Source of the DNA: a virus
DNA length: 36,903 nucleotides
Virus record (IMG/VR): IMGVR_UViG_3300006736_000025
Span: 1-36,903 of that record
Direction: 5' to 3' (one strand)
A model generated the notes under the pieces. It saw only the letters and a program-made list of their open reading frames with translations. It made no database searches and was not told where the DNA came from. Positions within the stretch are counted from its first letter, which is position 1. Every line of letters starts with the position of its first letter. Made by a program: the position numbers and the translations under genes. Shown one piece after another: positions 12,774-26,217 of this stretch.

Positions 12774-13802
12774 TTATCTGTCAAACTTCGTTTTGAAGTA
12801 TTCAATAATCCTCGCTCGTAGGTATGTAGATATTGGGGCATCTGATTTGATGCAAACCATTTCTGCGATTCTTCCTTCAAAAGTTCTTACCGCAGGATAT
12901 ATACCTGCTCCGCCAGTAGCATCATCATCATTAGATGTCCCTACAGATAAGTATACAGTTCCACTGGCTGAACCACTTTGTAGTGTTCCAAAGTCCCCCG
13001 CCGAGTTACCGTTAGGCGCACAATCAACACACCAAGCATAATTAGGATTAGGTATAACATGAGAGTTGATGTTGGTTGTTGCGTACATCCCTTGACCTAC
13101 ATAAGAGCCATCAGTAATTTCATCATACGCACAACTACAAGTTATATTCCAATCATCCGCAGCACACAAATCACCCGAAGCCCCGCCACTACTATGTGAT
13201 ACACCAAAATAAACATTCCCAGAGATAGGGTGCTTATCGAATGCCATAGCGTATGTTCTTGATATATCCCAACTGGTAGAGCCATCATGCCCTAAAAATT
13301 CATTACCCACAACAGGATTATCCCAGGTTGCGCTTAGTGAATCTGGTTTAGATATAATTACCCACATAATGTGTTGTGGGTCGTCATCGGTTGTGTTGAC
13401 TTTAATACCAAAATCTACTGTGTTGCTAGGTAGGCATAGAAGTTTAAGGTCCTTTACATTTCCGCCAGAGTTAAAACTTGCTTGAAACCTAAGAACACTG
13501 TAGCCGTTTATTTCATCTGCACTGCTTCCATGTTCATTCGTTCCAGTGCCATACGCTTGTGGTCCTCCCCCCAACCAAGGGTCTATTAGGTGGTTTGAGT
13601 TACCGCTTGAATCATCCCACTGTGTAATGTAATACTCGTCATCACCACTGGTCTTGTCTGCTACCCACTGTTCAGTGGTGAAGTCTTCTGCTTTCCACCA
13701 CCCTGTTACATCCCCCTCTGCCCCAATTTCAGAAAGAAAATTGCCTTCTGTTAGTGCAGTGACTTCAAACTTATTGTCGGTTATCCAAGTTCTATTTGGC
13801 AT
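12774..13802 (-). CDS. Tail adhesin with a concanavalin A/LamG-like domain
   Basis: A 342-residue protein with the pattern of phage lectin-like adhesins: GWWKAEDF near residue 35, TQWDDSSGNSNHL near 60, NGYSVLRFQ near 100, and a closing EGRIAEMVCIKSDAPIS with a final YFKTKFDR helix. These match the start and end of a LamG/ConA-type jelly-roll in structural proteins. Cys-rich stretches (CSCAYDE, CVDCAPN) occur in the middle. Its ATG overlaps the upstream stop by one base (TAATG). As the last gene of the tail-tip set it likely contacts the host surface. Confidence 0.7.
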   Translation of the reverse strand: MPNRTWITDNKFEVTALTEGNFLSEIGAEGDVTGWWKAEDFTTEQWVADKTSGDDEYYITQWDDSSGNSNHLIDPWLGGGPQAYGTGTNEHGSSADEINGYSVLRFQASFNSGGNVKDLKLLCLPSNTVDFGIKVNTTDDDPQHIMWVIISKPDSLSATWDNPVVGNEFLGHDGSTSWDISRTYAMAFDKHPISGNVYFGVSHSSGGASGDLCAADDWNITCSCAYDEITDGSYVGQGMYATTNINSHVIPNPNYAWCVDCAPNGNSAGDFGTLQSGSASGTVYLSVGTSNDDDATGGAGIYPAVRTFEGRIAEMVCIKSDAPISTYLRARIIEYFKTKFDR

Positions 13803-14632
13803 TATGTTTGTACCTCTCTTATATGCACACTGAAGCCTAAGTTTACTGGCTCTCCGATTCCATTGTCTTCCATGTCATAAACCTTTAAGTCTAGTGTGTC
13901 CCCTGGCTCTATTAGTATGTTCAACCCAGTTTTAGAAACAAGTTTATAGGGGCGGTACGGGGCAGGACCTCCACCCATATTTTCAAAAAAGTCTGTATCT
14001 GAAATTCTTGTAGAGGAATCACCGCTACCATTTATTTCTAATATAGCCTTGGCTTTGAACATTTGTACATGTTGGGCGGGTAATATGGTGGGTGAAGTTT
14101 GTGTTCTAAATGTCGCATGAAAAGCAGTTACTTCAAATGTCTTAAAAACAGATGTGTCACTAACAGTTTGACTAGGATTGAGACACAAATTAAAAGTGTG
14201 TGCATCGGCTGATGAGCCTTCATGGGGTTCTAGTATATGCCCACTTATTTCAGAAGCATATTGGTAGTGCCAACCACCGCCACCAATGCCCGCAGTACCT
14301 TCCTTGTAAATTAACCACGCATCATCGCTTTCTAAAAAAACCTGCATGCCCTTTTTAGGTGCAACGAATATCCACTCAGCCCTAACCTCTGGGTCTGTTG
14401 AATTTATGTAATAAGCAATGTTGTCACCCTTGCCATTCCACTCTTGGGCTGCGGGTGTGTAATCAACTAAATAAATATCCCCATCTGAGGGTGAGGCAGG
14501 GTTCACATCTAGTATACTTATTACACTCATCTGAGCCAGTGCATCAAGTTGATACATTGCTGTATTAAAGTTAGTGTCGGCATCAGCAGCGTTCTCTGCT
14601 AATGTAGTTATGTTATTTATGTATGTAGCCAC
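13802..14632 (-). CDS. DUF2793-like tail-tip protein, paralogue B, 276 aa
   Basis: The first ~120 residues follow the DUF2793 pattern of alphaproteobacterial phage and GTA-like tails: FNTAMYQLDALAQMSV, then PSDGDIYLVDYT, then WIFVAPKKGMQVFLESDD. The C-terminal half is different from its neighbour, beta-rich (ILIEPGDTLDLKVYDMED), and probably a receptor or display domain. Start and stop overlap the neighbours by one base each. The same N-terminal block occurs in the gene directly upstream, so the pair arose by tandem duplication. Such proteins usually sit at the tail tip or fibre base. Confidence 0.75.
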   Translation of the reverse strand: MATYINNITTLAENAADADTNFNTAMYQLDALAQMSVISILDVNPASPSDGDIYLVDYTPAAQEWNGKGDNIAYYINSTDPEVRAEWIFVAPKKGMQVFLESDDAWLIYKEGTAGIGGGGWHYQYASEISGHILEPHEGSSADAHTFNLCLNPSQTVSDTSVFKTFEVTAFHATFRTQTSPTILPAQHVQMFKAKAILEINGSGDSSTRISDTDFFENMGGGPAPYRPYKLVSKTGLNILIEPGDTLDLKVYDMEDNGIGEPVNLGFSVHIREVQT

Positions 14633-15294
14633 TACAAAGTAGCCTTAGTAATTGCAATAGTGAATTGTAAATCTAAACAAGTAGTAACACTAGAAACAAC
14701 TAACTCTACTTTTTTCTCTGCGGGAACAGCGAGAGTTTGTGTGCCAACATCTGAATCAAAGTCAACGAGGTGTGCAATAGATGTAGTTACGGGTAAAGTA
14801 GTCTCTGGAGCAACCTCGTCTACACTTAATCCTAGAGTGCATGAACCAGTACCCGCAATGGCAGATAGTTTTGTAATGGTAAACGCTTCGGTTGTATAAA
14901 GAATTAAAGTATAGTCCATTGCAAGTGGGGTGACAATATGACCAGACAGACCATCCGAACTACCATACAAGTCTGTCCAAATCGTACCGTTGTAATAAAC
15001 ATACTCATCTGTGTCTTGCATGTAAGCCCTCATCCCATCTTTAGGGGGAATAAACTTCCACTGGTTATTTAAATAGTAAGCAATGTAATTATCGTAGCCC
15101 TCCCAATCACCAGTACCCGCCGTATCCACAAGGTAAACATTTCCATGTGTCTCCGTCCCAGGAGCATTTTGTTGGGCTAATGGGGACAAATGTATTAACG
15201 AGTCCAACTTGTACATGCTTTCGTTGAATGTAACTTCAGCACCGTATTGATTCTCGGCTAATAAATATAGACCCTTGTTTGCTGTTACTCCCAT
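14632..15294 (-). CDS. DUF2793-like tail-tip protein, paralogue A, 220 aa
   Basis: The N-terminal ~110 residues share the DUF2793 pattern with the next gene: FNESMYKLDSLIHLSPLA, GNVYLVDTAGTGDWEGYDN, and WKFIPPKDGMRAYMQDTDEY. The remaining ~100 residues form a beta-rich domain (ITKLSAIAGTGSCTLGLSVD) unlike that of the paralogue. The ATG at 15294 directly abuts the stop of the large tail-tip gene, and an AGG lies about 10 bases upstream. The two proteins may form a hetero-oligomeric collar or fibre base. That is inference from duplication and position. Confidence 0.75.
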   Translation of the reverse strand: MGVTANKGLYLLAENQYGAEVTFNESMYKLDSLIHLSPLAQQNAPGTETHGNVYLVDTAGTGDWEGYDNYIAYYLNNQWKFIPPKDGMRAYMQDTDEYVYYNGTIWTDLYGSSDGLSGHIVTPLAMDYTLILYTTEAFTITKLSAIAGTGSCTLGLSVDEVAPETTLPVTTSIAHLVDFDSDVGTQTLAVPAEKKVELVVSSVTTCLDLQFTIAITKATL

Positions 15295-18200
15295 TTAATA
15301 TAACCTTTCATCTGTAATTTCTACTAATTTATCAATCCCACTCATGTGTAAGCCTATTTTCTGGATTTCAATATGAATACTTGCCGAGCCGTATGCTCCA
15401 CCATTGTCTGTATCTATGTCTAATTTTTTATATGTTACACGAGGGAACTCGGATATAGTGCCGTCAGAATTATACTGTGTGATAGCAATACCAGAGCCAT
15501 TTGTTGTGTCTGCTGCACTAGACAAGGTTGTTAGTAGAGTATCTCCGTCTGCCTTGTAGATATTACACCGATACTCCTCATCAATACCGTCTGTGTCAGG
15601 ATTAGGTGCTTGTGAGAAAAGTTTGAAAACCGCCCTATCTGTTCTTGCAAAATCAATAATCCAATCACCCGCACCTGTAGCCCCAGTAGGAATCTCGTAT
15701 CCCCGAACTCCACCCACAGGAAACGGTCGTAACCTAGTATTACTTGCTTGTGCATAGGTTTGAGTTGCATCGGATACCTCTGCTCCTGAAGCAACAACCT
15801 TGTAGTATATAGAAACACCAAAGTCATCCTGTTGGTACTCGATGTTTGATACAGCACCCCCCTCATCATAAGAAACAATACCCGCAGTGTACCCCGATTC
15901 TGTGTGTGAACCAGTTCTGTCGCTAGTGCCTCTTCTTCCCCGTATAAGGTTTGTAAGTCTATATTGTCTACCGTCCCCCACCACTTCAGCAGTTTTAAAC
16001 GAAATGAGTTCTCCATTCACATACAGTAAATTACTGAAAGCAAATACATTTGGTTCAGTTTCAGTTGCGGGAGAATTTGTACTGACAGGACCTAAAATCG
16101 TTACCAGTATTTCTGCTTTTTCGTCCCAAACACCCACAGGTCCATCGGGGATAACTGAATCTGTTCTTACCAACATACTTTCAGACTGAATACTTGCTAT
16201 CTCAGTAAAAGTACCACTACCCCCTATTTTTCTCCAAATTTTTGCGCTTGTGAACTCTTGGTCTTCGTTTTCTGTACAAGACATAATATAATGTCCTTGA
16301 GCGTTTATTCCTCCAGTGTGCAAAGCAGGAGAATCAAACACCAAGGTTTTCATAGGTGGTGGCGAGTATGGAACATCAACAACTTGGTCTTCATCAGCAT
16401 CGCCCGTATAGTCACTTGTACCCGAACCTTCAATAAGACCTGTTATTTCGTGGGTATAGTCTGCACCCCTATTTAATTCTAGTACACGAACATTATATGT
16501 TTCAAACTCATCTGTTCCTGCTGTAACAGAAATCAAATCACCCGCTTCTATGTCAATAAAAGAGGGGGCTATATTAAGTTTACAGCGTTGTCTTTGTTCA
16601 TGTGATTTGTATAATAACCTGTTGCCAACTGTTTGTGCCTCTGATGCTTTTAGCCCCATTGGTATCTCTATCATTTTTGCTCTATTTATACCCGCAACAG
16701 GTAGCCTTGCTTTCTGGCTGCCTTTTTGGTAGTTATCGTTAATATCATAATAAGATACATTTATTTCATTAGGTAAATCACTGCTCTCTTTATCAGAAAG
16801 CGTAAATAAAGGTATATTGTCCTTTCCTTCTGGGTCGGCATACGAACCTAAATCTGGGGGTAAGAGTGTTTTTGTTGTTGTTGTTTCTCTATTTGTGAAA
16901 ACTAAGACACCCTGCCGTTCATTTAACATTAAATCAAAATATAGTACAAGTGTGTTTATTAGTTGTTGGGATGTTTTTGCGCCCTTAGCAGTGTAACCAC
17001 GGACTCTATTTGCCTCTGTTACTGTTTGTAGAACATCTGTATTAAAAGAATCTCCAGAGGTGTAGTCCCCGCCAACACCCTCTTCTTTTTTAAACCCACG
17101 ACCTATTAAAATACTATCTATAACCTGACCCACCGTTGCATAGTCTTGGGTTGGGGGGTTTCCTGTTAGTATTTCGTTTTCACGAGGTATTGATTGAACA
17201 GTAAAATTACACTGGGGTATTTGGTTTCCGAAGTCAGCAAGTTGCATCTCTTCAATTGCACAATATGCTATCCCTTTGTATTTGGGGGAGGGGTTTCTTA
17301 CATCTGTTAGTATTTGGTCTGCTGTGTTATTATTGTAATGGTCTTTAACAGTTACTTCCCCTGACCCATAATTAGCATTATCATAGTCTCCGTCATCCCC
17401 AATATAAAATCTAAACTCTTTAACTAAAGTAGTGTCGTGTGTGTTAGTTGATGCCGTGATTTTTGCACCACTTGTGTTTTCATTATATCCCGTGGCACCC
17501 CAACTTGAAGGTAGTGGATTCCAAGTGTTTGACATATTTCCTGGGTAAGTGGATTGAGTCCACGATTCTCCACCGTGATTAGTTAGTGTGTGAACATAAT
17601 GTTCACCACTTGATGTTACTGTTGCTGACACCTTAACAACAATATAGTCTGAACCAACCGATAGGATTTTATGTGAGCCGTGGTTACAATCCCAAGGACT
17701 ACCACCGCCTGTCATTGTGCAATACTGACCTGCTAGATAATCGGAAAAGTGACCGCTGCCTCCGTTTGCAGTAATTTTCATCTTGTGTAACCAAGAGTCA
17801 TAATCTGGACTGTTTACACCGCTAGTAGGTCCTGTCCACTCTGCACCAAAATCTACCGTAAAGGAAATGAGCGACCCCTCTCTCGTAACAGGGTAATCTA
17901 CACTTGTTCTATATTTCTTTTTCCCGTTAAAATAAACTTCACTTACATAGTTAATAGGACCTTCGCATAGTGCTGTAACAAAATCACAGTCATAGGTATA
18001 CCAAGTCGTTGTACCTCCTTGGTTTGTGGTGTTGCTGTCCTTCTTATTATGTACAAGAACGCCATCAGCAAAATAATTTTCATCATCTTTTACTGTTAAG
18101 TTGTAAGTGGGTGCTTTGATTTCAAACCTATCAATTGAGTCAACAGTAACCCAACCCTTTTCAGATAGTAATTTGTCACCCGACCTTAAACTATGTGCCT

Positions 18201-18819
18201 GAAACCAATGTGCTTCATGGTCTGGCTTTAATCCATATACCTCGTGTTCAGGAGTACAAGTAAAATCAAAACCCTCCCCTACTACACGCAATGCTTTTTC
18301 TGTTGTGCTTGCCCACCTTTTTGTTACTTCTTTATCCCTAAAACAAAGTTTACCTTTCCGTGTTTTTGAGAACCTAGCAGTCCTTACAATATCGCCTGGC
18401 ATAATTTTTTCTATTGCTTTATCTGTTCCGTCTGCCATACGAATTGGAGTGCCTTTTAGAAACGATTTTTTACCACCACCTCCTGTTGGGTTCTGTGATG
18501 TATGCTTTGTCTCGTGTACCCCACTACAAGCGATTAGTTGTCCCGCAACTCTTATTTGACTTCCATACGAAGCAACTATTCCTTCACCCTCTTGAACCCC
18601 CATTATGTTTATTTCTTCTATTTTTTGCCCCTCACTGTGGTGTGTTGGGAACTCCATTGGGTCAATAATGCCCCCCGCCAGACCCCCAATTGCACCGCCA
18701 ATCGCCGCCCCCGTCCACATTGCAGTAGACCACATAGCAACGCCCGCAGGACCCATCATTACAAAAGCCGCCCCAATAACGAAACCTATTATCATGCCCC
18801 AACTACTGCCACTACCCAT
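15295..18819 (-). CDS. Tail-tip/host-specificity hub (GTA gp15-like) with embedded Hint domain
   Basis: A 1174-residue baseplate-hub protein. It opens with a Gly-rich hydrophobic segment (residues ~8-52), then VASYGSQIRVAGQLIACSG (83-101) and YTYDCDFVTALCEGPI (274-289), the pattern of GTA gp15 and related tail hubs. The long C-terminal part is made of beta domains typical of gpJ-like proteins (RLTNLIRGRRGTSD near residue 950). Between the two N-terminal blocks, at residues 119-258, an intein-like Hint domain is inserted (separate entry). GAGGAC lies 6 bases before the ATG. It follows the NlpC/P60 gene as in GTA gene order (gp14-gp15). It should form the tip that contacts the cell surface and opens the DNA channel. 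Confidence 0.85.
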   Translation of the reverse strand: MGSGSSWGMIIGFVIGAAFVMMGPAGVAMWSTAMWTGAAIGGAIGGLAGGIIDPMEFPTHHSEGQKIEEINIMGVQEGEGIVASYGSQIRVAGQLIACSGVHETKHTSQNPTGGGGKKSFLKGTPIRMADGTDKAIEKIMPGDIVRTARFSKTRKGKLCFRDKEVTKRWASTTEKALRVVGEGFDFTCTPEHEVYGLKPDHEAHWFQAHSLRSGDKLLSEKGWVTVDSIDRFEIKAPTYNLTVKDDENYFADGVLVHNKKDSNTTNQGGTTTWYTYDCDFVTALCEGPINYVSEVYFNGKKKYRTSVDYPVTREGSLISFTVDFGAEWTGPTSGVNSPDYDSWLHKMKITANGGSGHFSDYLAGQYCTMTGGGSPWDCNHGSHKILSVGSDYIVVKVSATVTSSGEHYVHTLTNHGGESWTQSTYPGNMSNTWNPLPSSWGATGYNENTSGAKITASTNTHDTTLVKEFRFYIGDDGDYDNANYGSGEVTVKDHYNNNTADQILTDVRNPSPKYKGIAYCAIEEMQLADFGNQIPQCNFTVQSIPRENEILTGNPPTQDYATVGQVIDSILIGRGFKKEEGVGGDYTSGDSFNTDVLQTVTEANRVRGYTAKGAKTSQQLINTLVLYFDLMLNERQGVLVFTNRETTTTKTLLPPDLGSYADPEGKDNIPLFTLSDKESSDLPNEINVSYYDINDNYQKGSQKARLPVAGINRAKMIEIPMGLKASEAQTVGNRLLYKSHEQRQRCKLNIAPSFIDIEAGDLISVTAGTDEFETYNVRVLELNRGADYTHEITGLIEGSGTSDYTGDADEDQVVDVPYSPPPMKTLVFDSPALHTGGINAQGHYIMSCTENEDQEFTSAKIWRKIGGSGTFTEIASIQSESMLVRTDSVIPDGPVGVWDEKAEILVTILGPVSTNSPATETEPNVFAFSNLLYVNGELISFKTAEVVGDGRQYRLTNLIRGRRGTSDRTGSHTESGYTAGIVSYDEGGAVSNIEYQQDDFGVSIYYKVVASGAEVSDATQTYAQASNTRLRPFPVGGVRGYEIPTGATGAGDWIIDFARTDRAVFKLFSQAPNPDTDGIDEEYRCNIYKADGDTLLTTLSSAADTTNGSGIAITQYNSDGTISEFPRVTYKKLDIDTDNGGAYGSASIHIEIQKIGLHMSGIDKLVEITDERLY
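18046..18465 (-). other. Intein-like Hint domain, residues 119-258 of the tail-tip protein
   Basis: The block begins SFLKGTPIRMADGTDKAIE, the classical Hint N-terminal motif with Ser119 where Cys is usual. PGDIV (141-145) follows. Block B is TPEHEVYG (T189, H192), and the C-terminal block is NYFADGVLVHN (248-258). The 140 residues are the size of a mini-intein with no homing endonuclease. The next residues are KKDSN, so the +1 residue is Lys, not the Cys, Ser or Thr needed for normal splicing. It sits in the Gly/Lys-rich linker GGGGKK just before the conserved hub block. N- or C-terminal self-cleavage, bacterial-intein-like chemistry, or a degenerate domain are possible. Confidence 0.85.
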
Positions 18820-18822
18820 AAG

Positions 18823-19293
18823 TTAGTCCTCTATTCCTGCGAATCGGAATGCTCCTGTTACTCGCTTGTTCCAAAATCGGCATCTTGTCGTTTCAACAAC
18901 CTTACCAACACCCTCGTGCGTGTGTATAAAGCCCTTATCGGTCAGTATCGAACAATGACAAGAAACATTGCGGTCACGAAGGAAATACATCTCGCAGTCA
19001 CCAATCCCCGCTTCTTCTGGTGGTATTTCAATCCATGCTTTTGCTACAAGCCCATATAGACTCTTAATATCCTCGTCAGTAAACTTCATCATACCCTTGT
19101 CGCTTGTAATGTTGTAGTTGGGCATTAAGTCCTGAAGACCTAAATCTTCAAGAACTACTATCCACAACCCACCACAATCAAGACCAGTACCACCCCTACC
19201 TCTTCCGCCCCACACCCACGGATGACCGAGATACTTTCTCGCCGCTTCAACAACCGCCATTCTAGGCAATAGTTTTGTGGTTTCTTTAATCAT
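18823..19293 (-). CDS. NlpC/P60-family cysteine peptidase of the tail (GTA gp14-like)
   Basis: A 156-residue peptidoglycan peptidase of the type carried at the tail tip. YLGHPWVWGGRGRGGTGLDC places catalytic Cys40 in the LDCGGL motif. His113 in SCHCSIL and a following H-T-H (124-126) supply the rest of the Cys-His-His site. ATG 19293 is chosen over an in-frame TTG at 19299, with AGGG about 7 bases upstream. The gene lies between the DUF2163-like and hub genes, the same order as GTA gp13-gp14-gp15. It should cut peptide cross-links in the host wall during DNA entry. Confidence 0.85.
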   Translation of the reverse strand: MIKETTKLLPRMAVVEAARKYLGHPWVWGGRGRGGTGLDCGGLWIVVLEDLGLQDLMPNYNITSDKGMMKFTDEDIKSLYGLVAKAWIEIPPEEAGIGDCEMYFLRDRNVSCHCSILTDKGFIHTHEGVGKVVETTRCRFWNKRVTGAFRFAGIED

Positions 19294-19295
19294 GT

Positions 19296-20285
19296 TCAAA
19301 CCCTATCTGGTATGAACATGGCTCTATCCATACCAGGAATATCAGGAAACCCACCAAAATTGTCTAAATTACCAAACTTACCCGCACAAGCCGAGTGTGT
19401 TTTATTGCACCCAACAGTCATAAGACAAGTATCACCAACCTCTATATCGTATGGCGTATCAATGAAAAGAGTAATTTCACTGTGGTCATCAGCATCGCCC
19501 CCCCCAGTTGCTTGTGATGAGGACGCAATAGGAAATTCTTCTCCATCATTAAGCCCACTTGTGAATTTAATAGTTCCATATCTCCAAACTTGGGCAATGT
19601 AACCAGTAGCAACATCGTCCTCATCAACGCTAAATTTATTTCTTGCTAAGGTTACTTTTGTAACTGTTGTTGTTTGTTGTATTGCCAGACCGCCGTAACC
19701 TGTAATTTGCATATTCCCGCCCAAGTTTACCCCACAACCAGGATTAAACTTGGTTAATGTAGTACCATCAGATGCTCTATGGTGGTGTTCTTGACCCAAA
19801 TTGTGACGGCAATTTCTGTTGTAAATCTTCCCAACAGGAAGCCTTAAAAACTTTGCTTGTGAAATCAATTCTGCTTTCCAACCAAAACCATCATTTACAA
19901 TGTCTGCAAGAGTGTACCTCGTCATATATAACTCATTTAACCAAGGGTACTGCCAATCAATCAGTTTCTCCGTGATAGCGGCACTTCTATATTTACCCCC
20001 ACGAATATCTGACTCCGTAAACCCATCTACTTCAGTAACACCAACAGGAATAAGTATTCCTGTGCTTGTTTTATTTGATTCTGACATACCGCTAGTTAGT
20101 TGTGTTGCAGAAACAGCAAACCCTATAGCCGCTTTGTATAAATGACTCTTGTAAGTAATGTCTGTGTTGTGGTCTGTGAATCTAAAAATTGTTCCATCTT
20201 TTCTTATCAACCGCCAAATAACAGCATAACGATGAACAGTGTTCTCGTTAATTGTTTTTAATTGGGATGTAAAGGATACTGTCAT
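19296..20285 (-). CDS. DUF2163/BR0599-family minor tail protein (GTA gp13-like)
   Basis: A 329-residue tail-tip protein. The C-terminal block GCNKTHSACAGKFGNLDNF followed by GGFPDIPG matches the signature of the phage BR0599/DUF2163 family (the GTA gp13 equivalent). The N-terminal part (YAVIWRLIRKDGTIFRFTDHN) is also typical. His and Cys clusters (NRNCRHNLGQEHHH, NPGCG) could bind metal, as the GTA hub homologue binds iron-sulphur; that comparison is inference. ATG 20285 overlaps the stop of the glycosyltransferase gene (ATGA), with AAGGAG about 10 bases upstream. A longer in-frame start would lie inside that gene and is rejected. Confidence 0.85.
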   Translation of the reverse strand: MTVSFTSQLKTINENTVHRYAVIWRLIRKDGTIFRFTDHNTDITYKSHLYKAAIGFAVSATQLTSGMSESNKTSTGILIPVGVTEVDGFTESDIRGGKYRSAAITEKLIDWQYPWLNELYMTRYTLADIVNDGFGWKAELISQAKFLRLPVGKIYNRNCRHNLGQEHHHRASDGTTLTKFNPGCGVNLGGNMQITGYGGLAIQQTTTVTKVTLARNKFSVDEDDVATGYIAQVWRYGTIKFTSGLNDGEEFPIASSSQATGGGDADDHSEITLFIDTPYDIEVGDTCLMTVGCNKTHSACAGKFGNLDNFGGFPDIPGMDRAMFIPDRV

Positions 20286-21358
20286 GCTTTGACTACTCCT
20301 TGTTTTTCTTTCTCTTTGCAATCCTTGCAATTTCTGCTTTTTCTTCTACACTCTTTAGTTGATTCTCCCTTGTGCCTCATAATACAATCAACCATTTCCT
20401 GTTGCTCCCTTAGTGTTGGAAGTCGGAAGTTACAAAGTGCGGGTAAATCAGAATCGGAATACATTCGTTTGGCTTGGACAAAATCCCTAAATTGATTTAT
20501 TTCGTCAATAGCATCTTCAAACTGAACAATCGCATGGATAGGAGCAACTTGTTTAAAGAACGGGTAATAAAGTTTCTCAAACACACCGTCCTCAAAAATA
20601 CAAGATGCAACTGCCATAGCGTTGAAATCTGCGTATGTGTTTGGAAAGCCCTTTTTAGGTTCTTTTAGTTCTTTTTGGAATCGGTGCTGTATACCAATGC
20701 TATTTATTCTTCTTACCTCAAACCCCATCATATAAGCCCTTAAAGACAAGTCATGTTCTTCGTATCCCCAACCATAAAGCGAGGGGTTTAATCCTCCCAT
20801 GACTTCCCAGATATATCTAGGTATGAAATAGCAACCACCAAGCAAACTATCACAACGGTCTACTACATCGTGTTCCCCCCTATTCATCCATGATTGTTTC
20901 ATAAAAACATCTGATGATTTTTCTGTTGTAGCCCTGCTCCATTTTGCTCCGCTACCAACCCATTTACACCTGAAGTTTATACAAGCACAGCAAAAAATCG
21001 CTTGTGGATAACGGTCTAATGCTTCGTCCACTGTTAATAGCCAGTTGTATGGCATTCTCATGTGAGAATCCATTATTACAATAACATCACCCGTTGCTAA
21101 GTTTGCCCCGAATCGTTTAGCCCCGCCCGCACCCAATCGTTTAGGTGTTCTAACTACTTTGACATCAGGAAACGAACTTAATCTTTCTTTAACATCATCA
21201 TCCCCACAATCATCAACAACAATAATCTCAATAGGTCTTGGCTCACTAGCCCAAACCATTGCAACTGTTACCTCAAGGTCACGAATCTCGTTGTGCGTAG
21301 GGATAACAACGGAATAAGAGAATTGTGCATCGGCATTTATTAGTTCAATGTTACTCAT
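20282..21358 (-). CDS. Family 2 glycosyltransferase resembling polypeptide GalNAc transferases
   Basis: A 358-residue GT-A enzyme. It starts with YSVVIPTHNE (15-24) and IIVVDDCGDD (45-54, nucleotide binding). Then comes RLGAGGAKRFGANLATGD and MDSHMRM, where D97-S98-H99 is the DxH metal site used by polypeptide GalNAc transferases rather than the common DxD. A later GGLNPSLYGWGYEEHDLSLR (189-207) matches the acceptor-site block, and IQHRF gives a third metal ligand (H225). The C-terminus is Cys/Lys-rich (CRRKSRNCKDCKEKEKQ). It sits inside the tail-tip gene set, coupled by a 4-base overlap to the gp13-like gene and 2 bases after a Thr-rich tail protein. It probably modifies a virion protein, but DNA or host glycan targets cannot be excluded. 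Confidence 0.85.
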   Translation of the reverse strand: MSNIELINADAQFSYSVVIPTHNEIRDLEVTVAMVWASEPRPIEIIVVDDCGDDDVKERLSSFPDVKVVRTPKRLGAGGAKRFGANLATGDVIVIMDSHMRMPYNWLLTVDEALDRYPQAIFCCACINFRCKWVGSGAKWSRATTEKSSDVFMKQSWMNRGEHDVVDRCDSLLGGCYFIPRYIWEVMGGLNPSLYGWGYEEHDLSLRAYMMGFEVRRINSIGIQHRFQKELKEPKKGFPNTYADFNAMAVASCIFEDGVFEKLYYPFFKQVAPIHAIVQFEDAIDEINQFRDFVQAKRMYSDSDLPALCNFRLPTLREQQEMVDCIMRHKGESTKECRRKSRNCKDCKEKEKQGVVKA

Positions 21359-21360
21359 GC

Positions 21361-21843
21361 TTAATGTGCTTGGTGGTGATGCACATTTCCGTCATCGTCT
21401 GTTTCTGTAGTTGTTGTTGTTGTTTCGCAGTCTACACCTGGTATACAATCATCTGAGAATGTAGAGTCGGTTGTGGTTGAATCATGGGGGTCAACGCAAG
21501 TAGCACAATTTATATGCCACTCACCCGCTGCTGTAGATGAGTCTAATAAAAAAACATTTGTCCAACAAGCATCTACTCCTGTCGCCCCTGTGCCTTGAAT
21601 GCACCCAACACTACCACCCTGATTATCTTTTAAAAGTATATTGTGATACCCAACATTCCAAATTGTAAATATCGCACCACCCCTAATTATAGGAAGAACA
21701 TTGGCAGGGGGTAAGTACAGAGAACCCTCATGCTCAAATGAGCCAACTCTTAAAAATCGTTTTGATAGTGTGCCTAAATACCTATTTCCTGTCCACTGAA
21801 ACTTTTCGTACCCCCCATAAAATTTTGGAAGAGTAAGAGTCAT
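21361..21843 (-). CDS. Minor tail protein with Thr-rich, His-ended tail, 160 aa
   Basis: The start overlaps the stop of the DUF2460 gene (ATGA). The first ~110 residues form a compact beta-type domain (YLGTLSKRFLRVGSFEHEG, then GGAIFTIWNVGYHNILLKD). The last ~45 residues are low-complexity: ATCVDPHDSTTTDSTFSDD, two Cys pairs, a run of six Thr (ETTTTTTETDDD), and HHHQAH at the end. No family is recognised. The position between GTA gp12-like and gp13-like genes makes a virion location likely. The Thr run is a plausible O-glycosylation target for the enzyme encoded next door. This is inference. Confidence 0.7.
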   Translation of the reverse strand: MTLTLPKFYGGYEKFQWTGNRYLGTLSKRFLRVGSFEHEGSLYLPPANVLPIIRGGAIFTIWNVGYHNILLKDNQGGSVGCIQGTGATGVDACWTNVFLLDSSTAAGEWHINCATCVDPHDSTTTDSTFSDDCIPGVDCETTTTTTETDDDGNVHHHQAH

Positions 21844-22910
21844 GGGTTAGTATCCCACTTGTTCCACTGCCTTGAGCCATCTGAGAACTCGCTTATCCAC
21901 ATTGTCGTTGATGAATCTGCTGCAAGAGTACCACTTAGACCTACGGAACTATTACTATCATGACCACTCGCTTCTTCACGAGCATCACTTAATTCCATAG
22001 TATAAGAGGCGTGTCGGTTTAGTAGGTAAAAATAAGGTCCACCAGGAGGGAGCGACCACGGGTCGGGCAAAATAACTTTATCGCCCGATACGTTTTCAGG
22101 GTCTAACGCTATTACTCTGCCCTGCCCAAACGCTATTGTTATGTCCCCATTTACTGTAATTGTTGAAGAACCCCCATAAAAGTATTCATCAAAGTGTTCA
22201 CTGTGGTCAATTATTTCTACTAAACTAATTGCATCCGTATTCCCTGTATCAAAAGTGTCAATGGAAATAGATAGTAAATCATCCATATCTTTTGTAAATC
22301 TAACAGGAACATCGAACTCACAAGCACCATAAACTGTTTCGTCATCCTCAATAGCAGCACCAGAAGATACAGTAACAATACCTGTTGCAGGATTAACTGT
22401 CCACCCACTAAGCCCTTGGGTTATCTCAGTGAAAGTGCTTCCATTACTTGACCTAGCAATCTTAATTTTATCCTTAACTGGTTTTGTTAGATTTCGGATA
22501 ACAACAGGTGTATCACCACCATCAGCATCTACCACACTATATCGTTTAGTTAGTTGTAAGGATAGGCTGACCGCTATTGTATCCCCTGTGGTATTAGTGT
22601 ACAAAGGGACATAAGCAGAGTCATCTTCATAAGAAGAACGCCCATCAGTAGCCGTTGTAAAATCTATCCAATCTTTGTAGCGAAAACCATACGCCGCACC
22701 CTTAACAGACATATAAAACTCTAAGACATCTTGCAAGTCTTGAAAAGTTTTTACGCCATACGATACATCATATTGTCTTTTTGACTTACTCCATCTTGAT
22801 ACTCTTTGCTCTGCTCCTGTATCAAGACCTACAACAGTTGTAGAAAACCCAGGACCTCCTGCTGACCCGTAAGATATGTTGGTGGGAAACCGTATTTCAT
22901 AAAACGACAT
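21840..22910 (-). CDS. DUF2460 distal-tail protein (GTA gp12-like)
   Basis: The first 90 residues match DUF2460 closely: FPTNISYGSAGGPGFSTTVV, then YDVSYGVKTFQDLQDVLEFY, and GAAYGFRYKDWIDF. GTA gp12 is the distal tail protein that joins the tube to the hub. At 356 residues this one is longer than the ~210 residues usual for the family. The second half has a separate beta domain (SSTITVNGDITIAFGQGRV; GTLAADSSTTMWISEFSDGS) that may be a carbohydrate-binding or decoration module. GGAG lies 8 bases before the ATG. It follows the tape measure gene by 13 bases. Confidence 0.85.
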   Translation of the reverse strand: MSFYEIRFPTNISYGSAGGPGFSTTVVGLDTGAEQRVSRWSKSKRQYDVSYGVKTFQDLQDVLEFYMSVKGAAYGFRYKDWIDFTTATDGRSSYEDDSAYVPLYTNTTGDTIAVSLSLQLTKRYSVVDADGGDTPVVIRNLTKPVKDKIKIARSSNGSTFTEITQGLSGWTVNPATGIVTVSSGAAIEDDETVYGACEFDVPVRFTKDMDDLLSISIDTFDTGNTDAISLVEIIDHSEHFDEYFYGGSSTITVNGDITIAFGQGRVIALDPENVSGDKVILPDPWSLPPGGPYFYLLNRHASYTMELSDAREEASGHDSNSSVGLSGTLAADSSTTMWISEFSDGSRQWNKWDTNP

Positions 22911-22923
22911 TCATTAACTCCAT

Positions 22924-25900
22924 TTACATTTCTGCCCCTTTAATACCTCTTCCCATATCCCTTGCGATTTGTTTCTTTGATTTTCTGAATGAGTCTGCAT
23001 CTTGTGTGGTTATGTTCATGTTTACTATAACATTTTTTCCGCCCCCGCCCTGGGCTTTCACACCTAAATCTCCTGAAGGCATACGGGTGAGTGGCATAAT
23101 TGCTTCTGCTCCTGCTTCTCCCATCAAGCCTACACCTCCACTAGCCATTGGGAACATGGTAGGTCTATGGACTACACCACCTGTTGCGAAGTTTTGCATG
23201 TCTCCACCAGACATAACTGCCCCTTGCCTAGCAGCACCTATACCTCCGCCTGGGAATATACCGCCCATTGCCCCCATAATCATTTTGTATATAACTGCTT
23301 GAATAATCATTTCAACAAGTTGTAAGACTACGCCTACAAACGCTTCTTCCATTGACTTTGCACCTTTAACTACATCCATAATGCCTTGAGTCATTGCTTG
23401 AGCCATTTGTTCATTTGTAACAAGCATTTCCTCTTTTAAATCTTTTTCTTTTTGATAAGCGTCATATTTCTTCATTAAGAGGTCTAATTCTGCTTTCCCT
23501 TGCTCTTCCATCATCATTCCGTATTGTTCTTGCCACGCCATTCTTGCATCTTGTTCATATCTTACACGAGCAAACGCATCTGCCTCATCTTTAGGGGCTG
23601 CTTGTTCTCTCTTAATATCCATTGCCAGATTTAGTGCATCAAATGCCCCAATTGAGTCATCTTGTGCGGCTTTGAGTAGTTGTAATTTTTTAGTAAGTTC
23701 TACTACATGAGCCATATATGCCACCCTCAACAAGAAAGCCATATCTTCTGTTTTTATCCAAGCCTCTCTTGCTACTCTTTGCAAGTCAATAGCGTTCGCT
23801 GCTTCTGTCCCACCTGCTATTTGTTGTTGAAGAATCAAAATTTCTTCTTTCATAGACGCAATATGGTTTTTTGTTGCCTCTATTTGACTTTTTCTTGCTG
23901 TCTCTAGTTTTTGTGCCTCGGCTGTCGCTTTTCGTTGTTCTTCTGTTAATTTTGCTCTTGCTTCAATGCCGTCTTGGAGTATGAAGTTCTTTTTCATAAG
24001 CAACATAGCCTCATCCCAATGTAGCGAAGTTCCTGCTTTCGTTACTTCGTTCCATATCTTGTTGAAAGCAATTGCTCTTCGTTTCTCATCTCCAACTAAG
24101 TGCATTACCGCTATTTGTTCGTCCAGAGCCTCTATCATTTCAAATACTTTTTCTGCGGCTTCATCATCTCCAGTTGGCATACCTAATTGCCCCCGTGCTT
24201 TTCTTCTTGTATCCGCCAATTCGTTCAAGGATAGAATAAGTTTTTTAACAAAATCTGCATCATGCCCCAAGTTTTTTGCAATGTCTGATTTTGTCATTGC
24301 ATTTATGAACTTTATTAAGTTTGAAGTTGAATCAACAATTGCTTTCAATTCTGTTGTTGATGCTTTTGAGTAATCAGTCACAGCACTCGTGGCATCAGTA
24401 TATGCGCTCGTAAGTTTTTGCTCTAACAAACCATGTTCTGCTATCATTTCTGCTAAATACTTATTACCATTTTTTATAGCATCTATATAGTCTTGTAAAG
24501 CCTTGCTTGGTTTTACCCATCTATCCTCGCCTGAATAGACTTCTATCCAACCAATCTCAGCATTAGGGTCATCCTTAGTTGTCATGATTCTCTCTTTCCT
24601 ACCTGTGTAATTGACTATATCATCTCCCATATCCTCTATAATACGCATCTCCCTGGGATATATACTTTTGAAGGCTTCATTCTTTGCCAATTCAAACTTT
24701 TCCAAGGAATCTGATAAGTGTTGTATAGATTCTGTGGCAGTTTCCGCATCCTTAGCCATACCTACCCTATTCATCCCCGAAATCATTGCGTCATTTACTT
24801 TTTCTTGCTGTTTCTCTACTGCGGCTATACCCTCAGCCCACTCCCAATACATTGTGATAAGTATGGCAACTGCTGATGCTATTGCGCCAACGATAGTCAA
24901 TGACTGTGCTGCTGCTAATCCCTTAAAGCCTTTTGTTAGCATAACTACCACACTCAATAGACTGAAAAATAAACCAATAACCATTTTAATTACCATCATT
25001 GCAACGAATCTAGCAACAATGAATTTAAGAATTATACTAAGAGCCTTAGCCCACCCATAAAACTTTTCAACAGAATAGGACATACCCGCAAACATTCTTG
25101 CTGTACCTGTCATTACATCTACAAGCGCGCGCAACGCACCACCCAAACCAGTATCCCCAAGACTTAACCATGTTTCTTGGATAGCGGAGCGTAACATTTT
25201 TAATGAACCGAAAAAGGTATCGTCCATCATTGCAGCAGCCCTTGCAGTCTCTTCTGCCAAATCTCTTTGTCTCTGAACCGCCGTACCCATTTCTTCATTT
25301 AATTCTGCTAACGCCAATGCACCAGGAACAGGTCTACGAGCAAAAATCTGCAACATCAACGCTGCGAACTCAGTAGAATCGCCTAGTTTCTTACCTGCTT
25401 CATTGAGACTGTGAAACACTTCTTCTAATGTGTGTATGGCGGGGTTCACATCAGCAGCAGTTAGCCCAAGTCTTTTAATAGCCCTCATTGCTTTGTCTGT
25501 TGGTTTAATTAAAGCCGCAAAAACACCACGCAACGCCGTACCTGCCATTGATGATTTAATACCAGTGTTAGCCATAAGACCCAAGGCTACATTTGTCTCT
25601 TCAAGAGAAATACCTAAAGCACCTGCGAAAGTACCTGCATATTGCATAGCATTACCTAGTTGGAATACAGTTGTATTAAAACTATTTGCGGTAATCATCA
25701 AAGAATCTACTACACGCTCTGCATCACGACCCGTTAGGTTGAATTGGTGAATTGTATTAGCAACCATGTCACTCGCTGCGCCCAGTTCAATAACAGCGGC
25801 AGTAGCAAGGTTCAAAGTATGGGGAATCATTTCCATAACATCGTGTGTCTCAAAACCTGCTCTTGCGAGGAAAGCCATGCCCTCACCTGCTTCTGTTGCA

Positions 25901-26217
25901 GTGAACCTTGTTGTTGCTCCGAGTTCACGAGCAGTTTTGTTTAACCCCTTCATCTTTTCATCACTCAAGCCTACAACAACTTGCACACTACGCATGGTTT
26001 TTTCAAAGTCAACCATTGTCTTGATAGCATCACGAATCACATATAGACCAAGAAAACCGCCCACAAGCATACGGAGGTTTAAACCAAGTGTATTAACACT
26101 TTTACCTGCCGCTAAGGCAGACCCACTTACACCCGCAGCAGCACCTTGAAATTGTTTTGCACCACGCACAGCCAACGCTGCGTTGATTTTTAACATTAGT
26201 GTTTGACCAATAGTCAT
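22924..26217 (-). CDS. Tail tape measure protein, TP901 core type
   Basis: A 1097-residue tape measure. Residues ~65-235 form the TP901 core (FEKTMRSVQVVVGLSDEK; ARAGFETHDVMEMIPHTLNL; GTALRGVFAALI). A hydrophobic block around residues 390-460 (FVAMMVIKMVIGLFFSLLS; SAVAILITMYW) contains two or three membrane spans for channel formation. A long helical stretch follows to about 960. The end carries the FATGGVVHRPTMFP and GLMGEAGAEAIMPL repeats common in lambda-like tape measures. Its length predicts a tail of roughly 150-165 nm by the usual 1.5 angstrom per residue rule. It starts 3 bases after the chaperone extension, as expected. Confidence 0.95.
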   Translation of the reverse strand: MTIGQTLMLKINAALAVRGAKQFQGAAAGVSGSALAAGKSVNTLGLNLRMLVGGFLGLYVIRDAIKTMVDFEKTMRSVQVVVGLSDEKMKGLNKTARELGATTRFTATEAGEGMAFLARAGFETHDVMEMIPHTLNLATAAVIELGAASDMVANTIHQFNLTGRDAERVVDSLMITANSFNTTVFQLGNAMQYAGTFAGALGISLEETNVALGLMANTGIKSSMAGTALRGVFAALIKPTDKAMRAIKRLGLTAADVNPAIHTLEEVFHSLNEAGKKLGDSTEFAALMLQIFARRPVPGALALAELNEEMGTAVQRQRDLAEETARAAAMMDDTFFGSLKMLRSAIQETWLSLGDTGLGGALRALVDVMTGTARMFAGMSYSVEKFYGWAKALSIILKFIVARFVAMMVIKMVIGLFFSLLSVVVMLTKGFKGLAAAQSLTIVGAIASAVAILITMYWEWAEGIAAVEKQQEKVNDAMISGMNRVGMAKDAETATESIQHLSDSLEKFELAKNEAFKSIYPREMRIIEDMGDDIVNYTGRKERIMTTKDDPNAEIGWIEVYSGEDRWVKPSKALQDYIDAIKNGNKYLAEMIAEHGLLEQKLTSAYTDATSAVTDYSKASTTELKAIVDSTSNLIKFINAMTKSDIAKNLGHDADFVKKLILSLNELADTRRKARGQLGMPTGDDEAAEKVFEMIEALDEQIAVMHLVGDEKRRAIAFNKIWNEVTKAGTSLHWDEAMLLMKKNFILQDGIEARAKLTEEQRKATAEAQKLETARKSQIEATKNHIASMKEEILILQQQIAGGTEAANAIDLQRVAREAWIKTEDMAFLLRVAYMAHVVELTKKLQLLKAAQDDSIGAFDALNLAMDIKREQAAPKDEADAFARVRYEQDARMAWQEQYGMMMEEQGKAELDLLMKKYDAYQKEKDLKEEMLVTNEQMAQAMTQGIMDVVKGAKSMEEAFVGVVLQLVEMIIQAVIYKMIMGAMGGIFPGGGIGAARQGAVMSGGDMQNFATGGVVHRPTMFPMASGGVGLMGEAGAEAIMPLTRMPSGDLGVKAQGGGGKNVIVNMNITTQDADSFRKSKKQIARDMGRGIKGAEM

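Follow-up and report, generated by a model that had tools for sequence, protein, structure and literature searches.

A type A BIL-like Hint domain in the Gly/Lys loop of a phage tail-tip megatron, a candidate self-cutting element of the tail tip

The stretch of DNA analysed here, the window, comprises 36,903 nucleotides (positions 1-36,903 of IMG/VR virus record IMGVR_UViG_3300006736_000025) and carries on its minus strand a tail module in which the GTA gene order is kept: tape measure, distal tail, hub, NlpC/P60 and megatron (Table 1). Two additional genes lie between the DUF2460 (distal-tail) and hub genes. One of them encodes a family 2 glycosyltransferase inside the tail module (20282-21358, minus strand; PF00535, E 3e-24), and downstream of the megatron gene lie two adjoining DUF2793 proteins (13802-15294, minus strand), probably from duplicated tail-fibre genes.

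Table 1. Features of the tail module and of the Hint-bearing gene, in window coordinates
Feature	Position	Strand	Evidence
Megatron-type tail-tip protein, 1174 aa, RcGTA g15 / Rcc01698 homologue	15295..18819	-	PF13550, PF23666, NF048004, phrog_4271
Residues 1-55, hydrophobic Gly-rich N-terminus matching RcGTA iris/penetration domain (1-46)	18655..18819	-	alignment, hydropathy
GGGGKK linker, residues 113-118, immediately N-terminal to Hint	18466..18483	-	sequence
Hint (BIL-like) domain, residues 119-258	18046..18465	-	translation, profiles, fold
Ser119, putative position 1 nucleophile	18463..18465	-	sequence, Hint alignment
Block B T-P-E-H, residues 189-192	18244..18255	-	Hint alignment
Terminal His257-Asn258, predicted C-cleavage by Asn cyclisation	18046..18051	-	sequence
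Lys259-Lys260, +1 and +2, no Cys/Ser/Thr nucleophile	18040..18045	-	sequence
Linker downstream half KKDSNTTNQGGTTT, ahead of conserved YTY strand	18004..18045	-	alignment, model
NlpC/P60-like cell-wall peptidase, RcGTA g14 position	18823..19299	-	PF00877 E 1.4e-4, slightly below cutoff
True baseplate hub protein, RcGTA g13 position	19296..20330	-	PF09931 + PF09356
DUF2460 protein, distal-tail position	21840..22910	-	profile search
Tape measure protein	22924..26217	-	profile search

The host open reading frame matches the megatrons of RcGTA (6tba, E 4e-113) and phage R4C (8gtc_M of 8gtc, E 3e-86) in profile searches, with homology to RcGTA g15 spanning the N-terminal and the central/C-terminal parts and C-terminal matches to Phage-tail_3, Rcc01698_C and phrog_4271. 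Its NF048004 score is 234 bits against a curated equivalog cutoff of 800, which makes it a distant member of the family. As judged from these profiles, the Hint-bearing protein is a GTA-type megatron and not the tail-tip hub named in the initial annotation; the hub proper (PF09931) is encoded by an adjacent gene. In RcGTA, residues 1-46 of the megatron form the iris/penetration domain, for which channel closure and entry into the outer membrane have been proposed (PMC7296036). In GTAs and roseophages alike, the tail channel is shut by the first part of the megatron, which is believed to penetrate the outer membrane. Residues 8-28 of the window protein are strongly hydrophobic, with a hydrophobic helix predicted, and by analogy its N-terminus probably has the same iris/penetration role.

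The Hint itself is a stop-free run of 140 codons reading SFLKGTPI...TPEH...ADGVLVHN and followed by KKDSNTTNQGG. PT-HINT (PF07591) is matched in the whole protein at E 3.8e-8 (34.1 bits, gathering cutoff 27.7), and within residues 119-258 lie a match to TIGR01443 (intein_Cterm) above its cutoff (E 4e-6) and matches to weaker intein models. Against solved structures, phmmer places Tetrahymena BIL2 at the top (E 2e-6). An AlphaFold model, built on an alignment of 33 phage Hints in which the Thr and His of block B are conserved at more than 90%, has a pLDDT of 95 and a pTM of 0.87 and shows the Hint horseshoe. Its best fold match is again Tetrahymena BIL2 (Z 20.8, rmsd 1.6 over 132 residues), followed by the C. 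thermocellum BIL (Z 20.5, rmsd 1.3 over 130 residues) and then by RecA and DnaB inteins and Hedgehog, all of which cover Hint residues 1-140. The domain has no endonuclease, frameshift or stop, and a close relative was not found among GenBank phages. The Hint and both its ends are real: the complete, mini-intein-sized domain first recognised from the sequence alone at residues 119-258 holds up in the Pfam/InterPro and BIL comparison (PF07591, TIGR01443, phmmer), in the predicted fold (Z about 20 to BILs and inteins) and in an independent contig, L001, whose Hint is identical at 138 of 140 positions, and the arithmetic of the proposed pieces (118, 140 and 916 aa) agrees. A chance motif is ruled out by the HMM matches and the fold, and an assembly artefact by the presence of the same insert in L001.

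When seven homologues are aligned, the Hint sits at the junction GKGG^TTxYTY, where it replaces nothing and leaves the neighbouring conserved blocks intact, a clean insertion in the Gly/Lys linker as originally described. The site aligns with the Gly/Lys loop of the R4C megatron, which is disordered over residues 95-113 (8gtc), and lies between the iris/penetration half of the megatron and the remainder. A full-length model (overall pLDDT 61), used solely for the strands around the loop, has the loop flanked by long strands at residues 94-108 and 271-286; over the Hint its pLDDT is below 40 because only two aligned rows cover that part. The Hint is thus placed in a non-conserved, variable region of its host protein, which fits a type A BIL.

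Hint-bearing megatrons are rare. By alignment, a Hint is present in only one of the best 80 IMG/VR megatron loci, the sister contig L001, and in none of the best 80 loci of GTDB bacterial genomes, so that one sister phage with a Hint stands against approximately 160 homologous megatrons of viral contigs and bacterial genomes without one; because these scans cover the best 80 loci, rare Hint-bearing megatrons could be missed. A search with two patterns, megatron IW and Hint block A within 45-75 bases, returned five loci, of which three were non-megatron ORFs and two were new, without adding an established Hint-bearing megatron. Searching with a neighbouring gene brought up one more near-identical contig, L287 (IMGVR_UViG_3300025078_000026), on which the hub gene is 100% identical to that of the window; it stops before the megatron and was therefore left out of the comparison. 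In the open-access literature, no report was found that places a Hint in either a tail tip or a megatron.

The sister megatron allows selection on the Hint to be gauged, from one pair only. Window and L001 megatrons are ~89% identical, and over 140 codons their Hints differ by 5 synonymous changes and by 2 amino-acid changes, both conservative. Nonsynonymous changes thus number 2 in the Hint and 152 elsewhere in the gene (density, Fisher 7e-7), while synonymous density does not differ significantly (p 0.14); the N:S contrast between Hint and rest (p 0.046) is weak alone, with two Hint carriers only. The dN/dS of the Hint, 0.11, is the lowest in the gene, against 0.27-0.97 elsewhere, and S1, TPEH, HN and KK are all kept. 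With the caution due to a single pair, this low ratio points to a maintained function rather than decay.

Phage Hints of this kind form a wider class. A pattern scan found at least 119 IMG/VR loci with F..GTP.. Hints, and clustering at 65% identity gave 28 groups among the matches listed. Position 1 in these 28 clusters is Cys in 25, Ser in 2 and Thr in 1, figures of which only the Cys:Ser:Thr ratio is meaningful because the pattern itself restricts that position. The +1 residue, among the same listed matches, is Lys in 16 clusters, Arg in 3 and Cys/Ser/Thr in only 3. From these counts, Lys at +1 is a habit of the class and Ser at position 1 a rare feature. In a tree of 82 phage Hints the window pair lies on a long branch, and its grouping with C-terminal tail-fibre Hints lacks support (0.395). 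The class also includes phage ORFs of 450-1200 aa and unassigned function in which two or three Hints follow one another in tandem (L026, L018, L120 and L021, for example); these Hints, within L005-L123, mostly have Lys at +1, and some of them come directly after poly-Gly. In L110, L012, L015, L030, L092 and L101 the Hint is at the extreme C-terminus of tail-fibre-like proteins of 1300-2700 aa, with only 4-8 residues beyond HN, and L110 also has Ser1. Hints within or ending phrog_358 proteins of about 2000 aa are found in L086:1-2748 and L019:2364-7343, two of them right ahead of the phrog_358 C-terminal part in L086.

The type A BILs end in HN without a +1 nucleophile; they mainly cleave and can splice by aminolysis (PMC4031507, PMC5874633). 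The window domain combines the Hint horseshoe fold, a Ser at position 1 and a C-terminal H257-N258 with Lys259 at +1. A class 1 intein has a nucleophile at +1 and a conserved functional insertion site; here the +1 residue is Lys259 and the site is a variable disordered loop, and these two features rule out a canonical intein. On sequence grounds, then, the window Hint is a type A BIL-like domain, a Ser1 variant, with a known class of chemistry in a new place, the tail-tip megatron. The expectation in the initial annotation that normal splicing would not occur thus stands in part: Lys+1 does exclude splicing by transesterification, but Ser1 is no reason for it, being a normal intein nucleophile, and aminolytic splicing is feasible without a +1 nucleophile (PMC4031507). 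Nor is Lys+1 an oddity, given its frequency among the listed phage Hints.

Based on the predicted fold, the active-site residues, the conservation and the insertion site, we propose that this type A BIL-like Hint, inserted in the megatron's disordered Gly/Lys loop at the tail channel's distal end, cuts itself out to leave a two-piece tail tip of 118 and 916 aa, a reading to which we assign a probability of about 0.5. After folding, the amide preceding Ser119 would shift to an ester and Asn258 would cyclise. Because Lys at +1 offers no thiol or hydroxyl, no branched intermediate would form, and hydrolysis and cleavage would dominate. Under the rule of type A BILs, self-excision of the Hint is expected, with a nicked megatron as the main outcome; the self-cleavage suggested at the outset would be the chemistry expected of such domains (PMC4031507). 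Residues 1-118, holding the iris/penetration helix and the beginning of the adhesin-like domain, would form one piece of the mature tip and residues 259-1174 the other; pairing of strands 94-108 and 271-286 would hold the two together, and the 16-kDa Hint would be shed. A block-F His common among relatives is replaced here by Glu (residue 247), which could make the C-terminal step slower. The analysis establishes the fold, the active-site residues, the insertion site and the conservation; Hint activity, the faster-cutting end, the product ratio, the staying together of the pieces and a role for the cut in iris opening we infer.

The main rival to autocleavage is aminolytic splicing, in which cyclisation of Asn258 frees the alpha-amine of Lys259, this amine attacks the ester at Ser119 and the excised Hint departs, giving a continuous 1034-aa megatron with the linker GGGGKKKKDSN. 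The Hint would then be a nearly harmless passenger in an ordinary tail tip. Hint-less homologues have a continuous G/K-rich loop, with KKKK in some, so a spliced product would look normal. Towards amines, nevertheless, an oxygen ester such as Ser1 would provide is less reactive as an acyl donor than the thioester of a Cys. The mechanism has been proposed for type A BILs, which have no +1 nucleophile, but cleavage products predominate in the BILs tested (PMC4031507), and we regard splicing as unlikely here. Somewhat less likely again is an uncut Hint that stays in the virion as an additional folded module of the tip, serving decoration or adhesion, or a Hint whose cutting is only slow or needs a trigger, for instance contact with a receptor. 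A disordered loop would tolerate a folded insert with adjacent termini, Ser1 is unusual (2 of the 28 clusters among the matches listed) and the block-F His is missing; all cleavage residues are strongly constrained, however, and plain decoration need not retain S1, TxxH and HN.

A further, improbable reading is an attack on the Ser ester by the epsilon-amine of Lys259 or Lys260, or by a lysine on an adjacent chain or on the host surface, so that an isopeptide bond cross-links or attaches the 118-residue N-terminal piece. Tetrahymena BIL2, the closest solved relative, forms Lys isopeptide bonds (PMC8616854), and this chemistry, with the Lys+1 habit of the phage Hints (16 of 28 clusters among the matches listed), makes the lysine route a long shot worth considering, although Lys+1 may be inherited or merely suit the loop and ester aminolysis is slow. 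Carried further, and on a highly speculative footing, the Hint could be a tail-tip acyl-transfer device that activates the end of the 118-residue iris/penetration piece and passes it to a lysine, be it its own Lys259/260, one of a neighbour subunit or an amine on the host surface; the phage would then covalently cross-link its tip or attach its membrane-entry peptide, and the Lys+1 found in many phage Hints would reflect such chemistry. A functionless intein in decay, its +1 nucleophile gone, would agree with the rarity of the element (two Hint megatrons among ~160), the lack of an endonuclease, and Ser1 and Lys+1 in place of the usual Cys and Cys/Ser/Thr. The lowest dN/dS in the gene and the intact reading frame speak against it, as does Lys+1 being the norm of its class and not a loss, and we consider decay very improbable.

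Autocleavage and these alternatives differ in their expected products. Calculated masses are 127.7 kDa for the intact chain, 11.9 for the N-piece, 15.9 for the Hint, 99.9 for the C-piece and 111.8 kDa for the spliced chain. Trypsin cannot reveal N-cleavage at S119, since it cuts K118|S119 in any case, and Glu-C is needed. The predicted Glu-C peptides are TKHTSQNPTGGGGKKSFLKGTPIRMADGTDKAIE and NYFADGVLVHNKKDSNTTNQGG...E for the uncut chain, the N-cleaved end TKHTSQNPTGGGGKK and the C-piece start KKDSNTTNQGG..., and, for the spliced chain, TKHTSQNPTGGGGKKKKDSNTTNQGGTTTWYTYDCDFVTALCE and TKHTSQNPTGGGGKKKKDSN....

If autocleavage is correct, a self-cutting domain placed exactly between the iris part and the rest would open the release step to genetics and biochemistry, and one residue change (S119A or N258A) should switch that step. 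BIL-type domains, whose bacterial function is mostly unknown, would also gain a structurally defined host protein.

The systems closest to this one each share part of it. Among megatrons, RcGTA g15 (6tba/6teh) and the R4C protein (8gtc) have the family, the iris/penetration N-terminus, the Gly/Lys loop and the gene order in common with the window, but their loop is without a Hint. In phiCbK-like phages both megatron homologues and Hint elements are present, yet the inteins are in TerL and ribonucleotide reductase rather than the tail tip (PMC3556154). The IMG/VR phage Hints (L005-L123) share the F..GTP.. block A, T..H, HN, often Lys+1 and often a position near Gly-rich stretches, whereas among the matches listed nearly all have Cys1, none has a megatron host, and identity is about 24-37%. 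BIL2 of Tetrahymena thermophila BUBL1 (6y75, 6tmm) is the best sequence and fold match, at 29% identity; it has Cys1 and is flanked by ubiquitin-like domains, whereas the flanks of the window Hint are two parts of one structural protein. The C. thermocellum BIL (PDB 2lwy) is alike in its Hint fold, HN end, lack of a +1 nucleophile and variable-region insertion, and from such type A BILs, of which the structures found have Cys1, the window Hint differs in its Ser1 and its phage tail-tip host.
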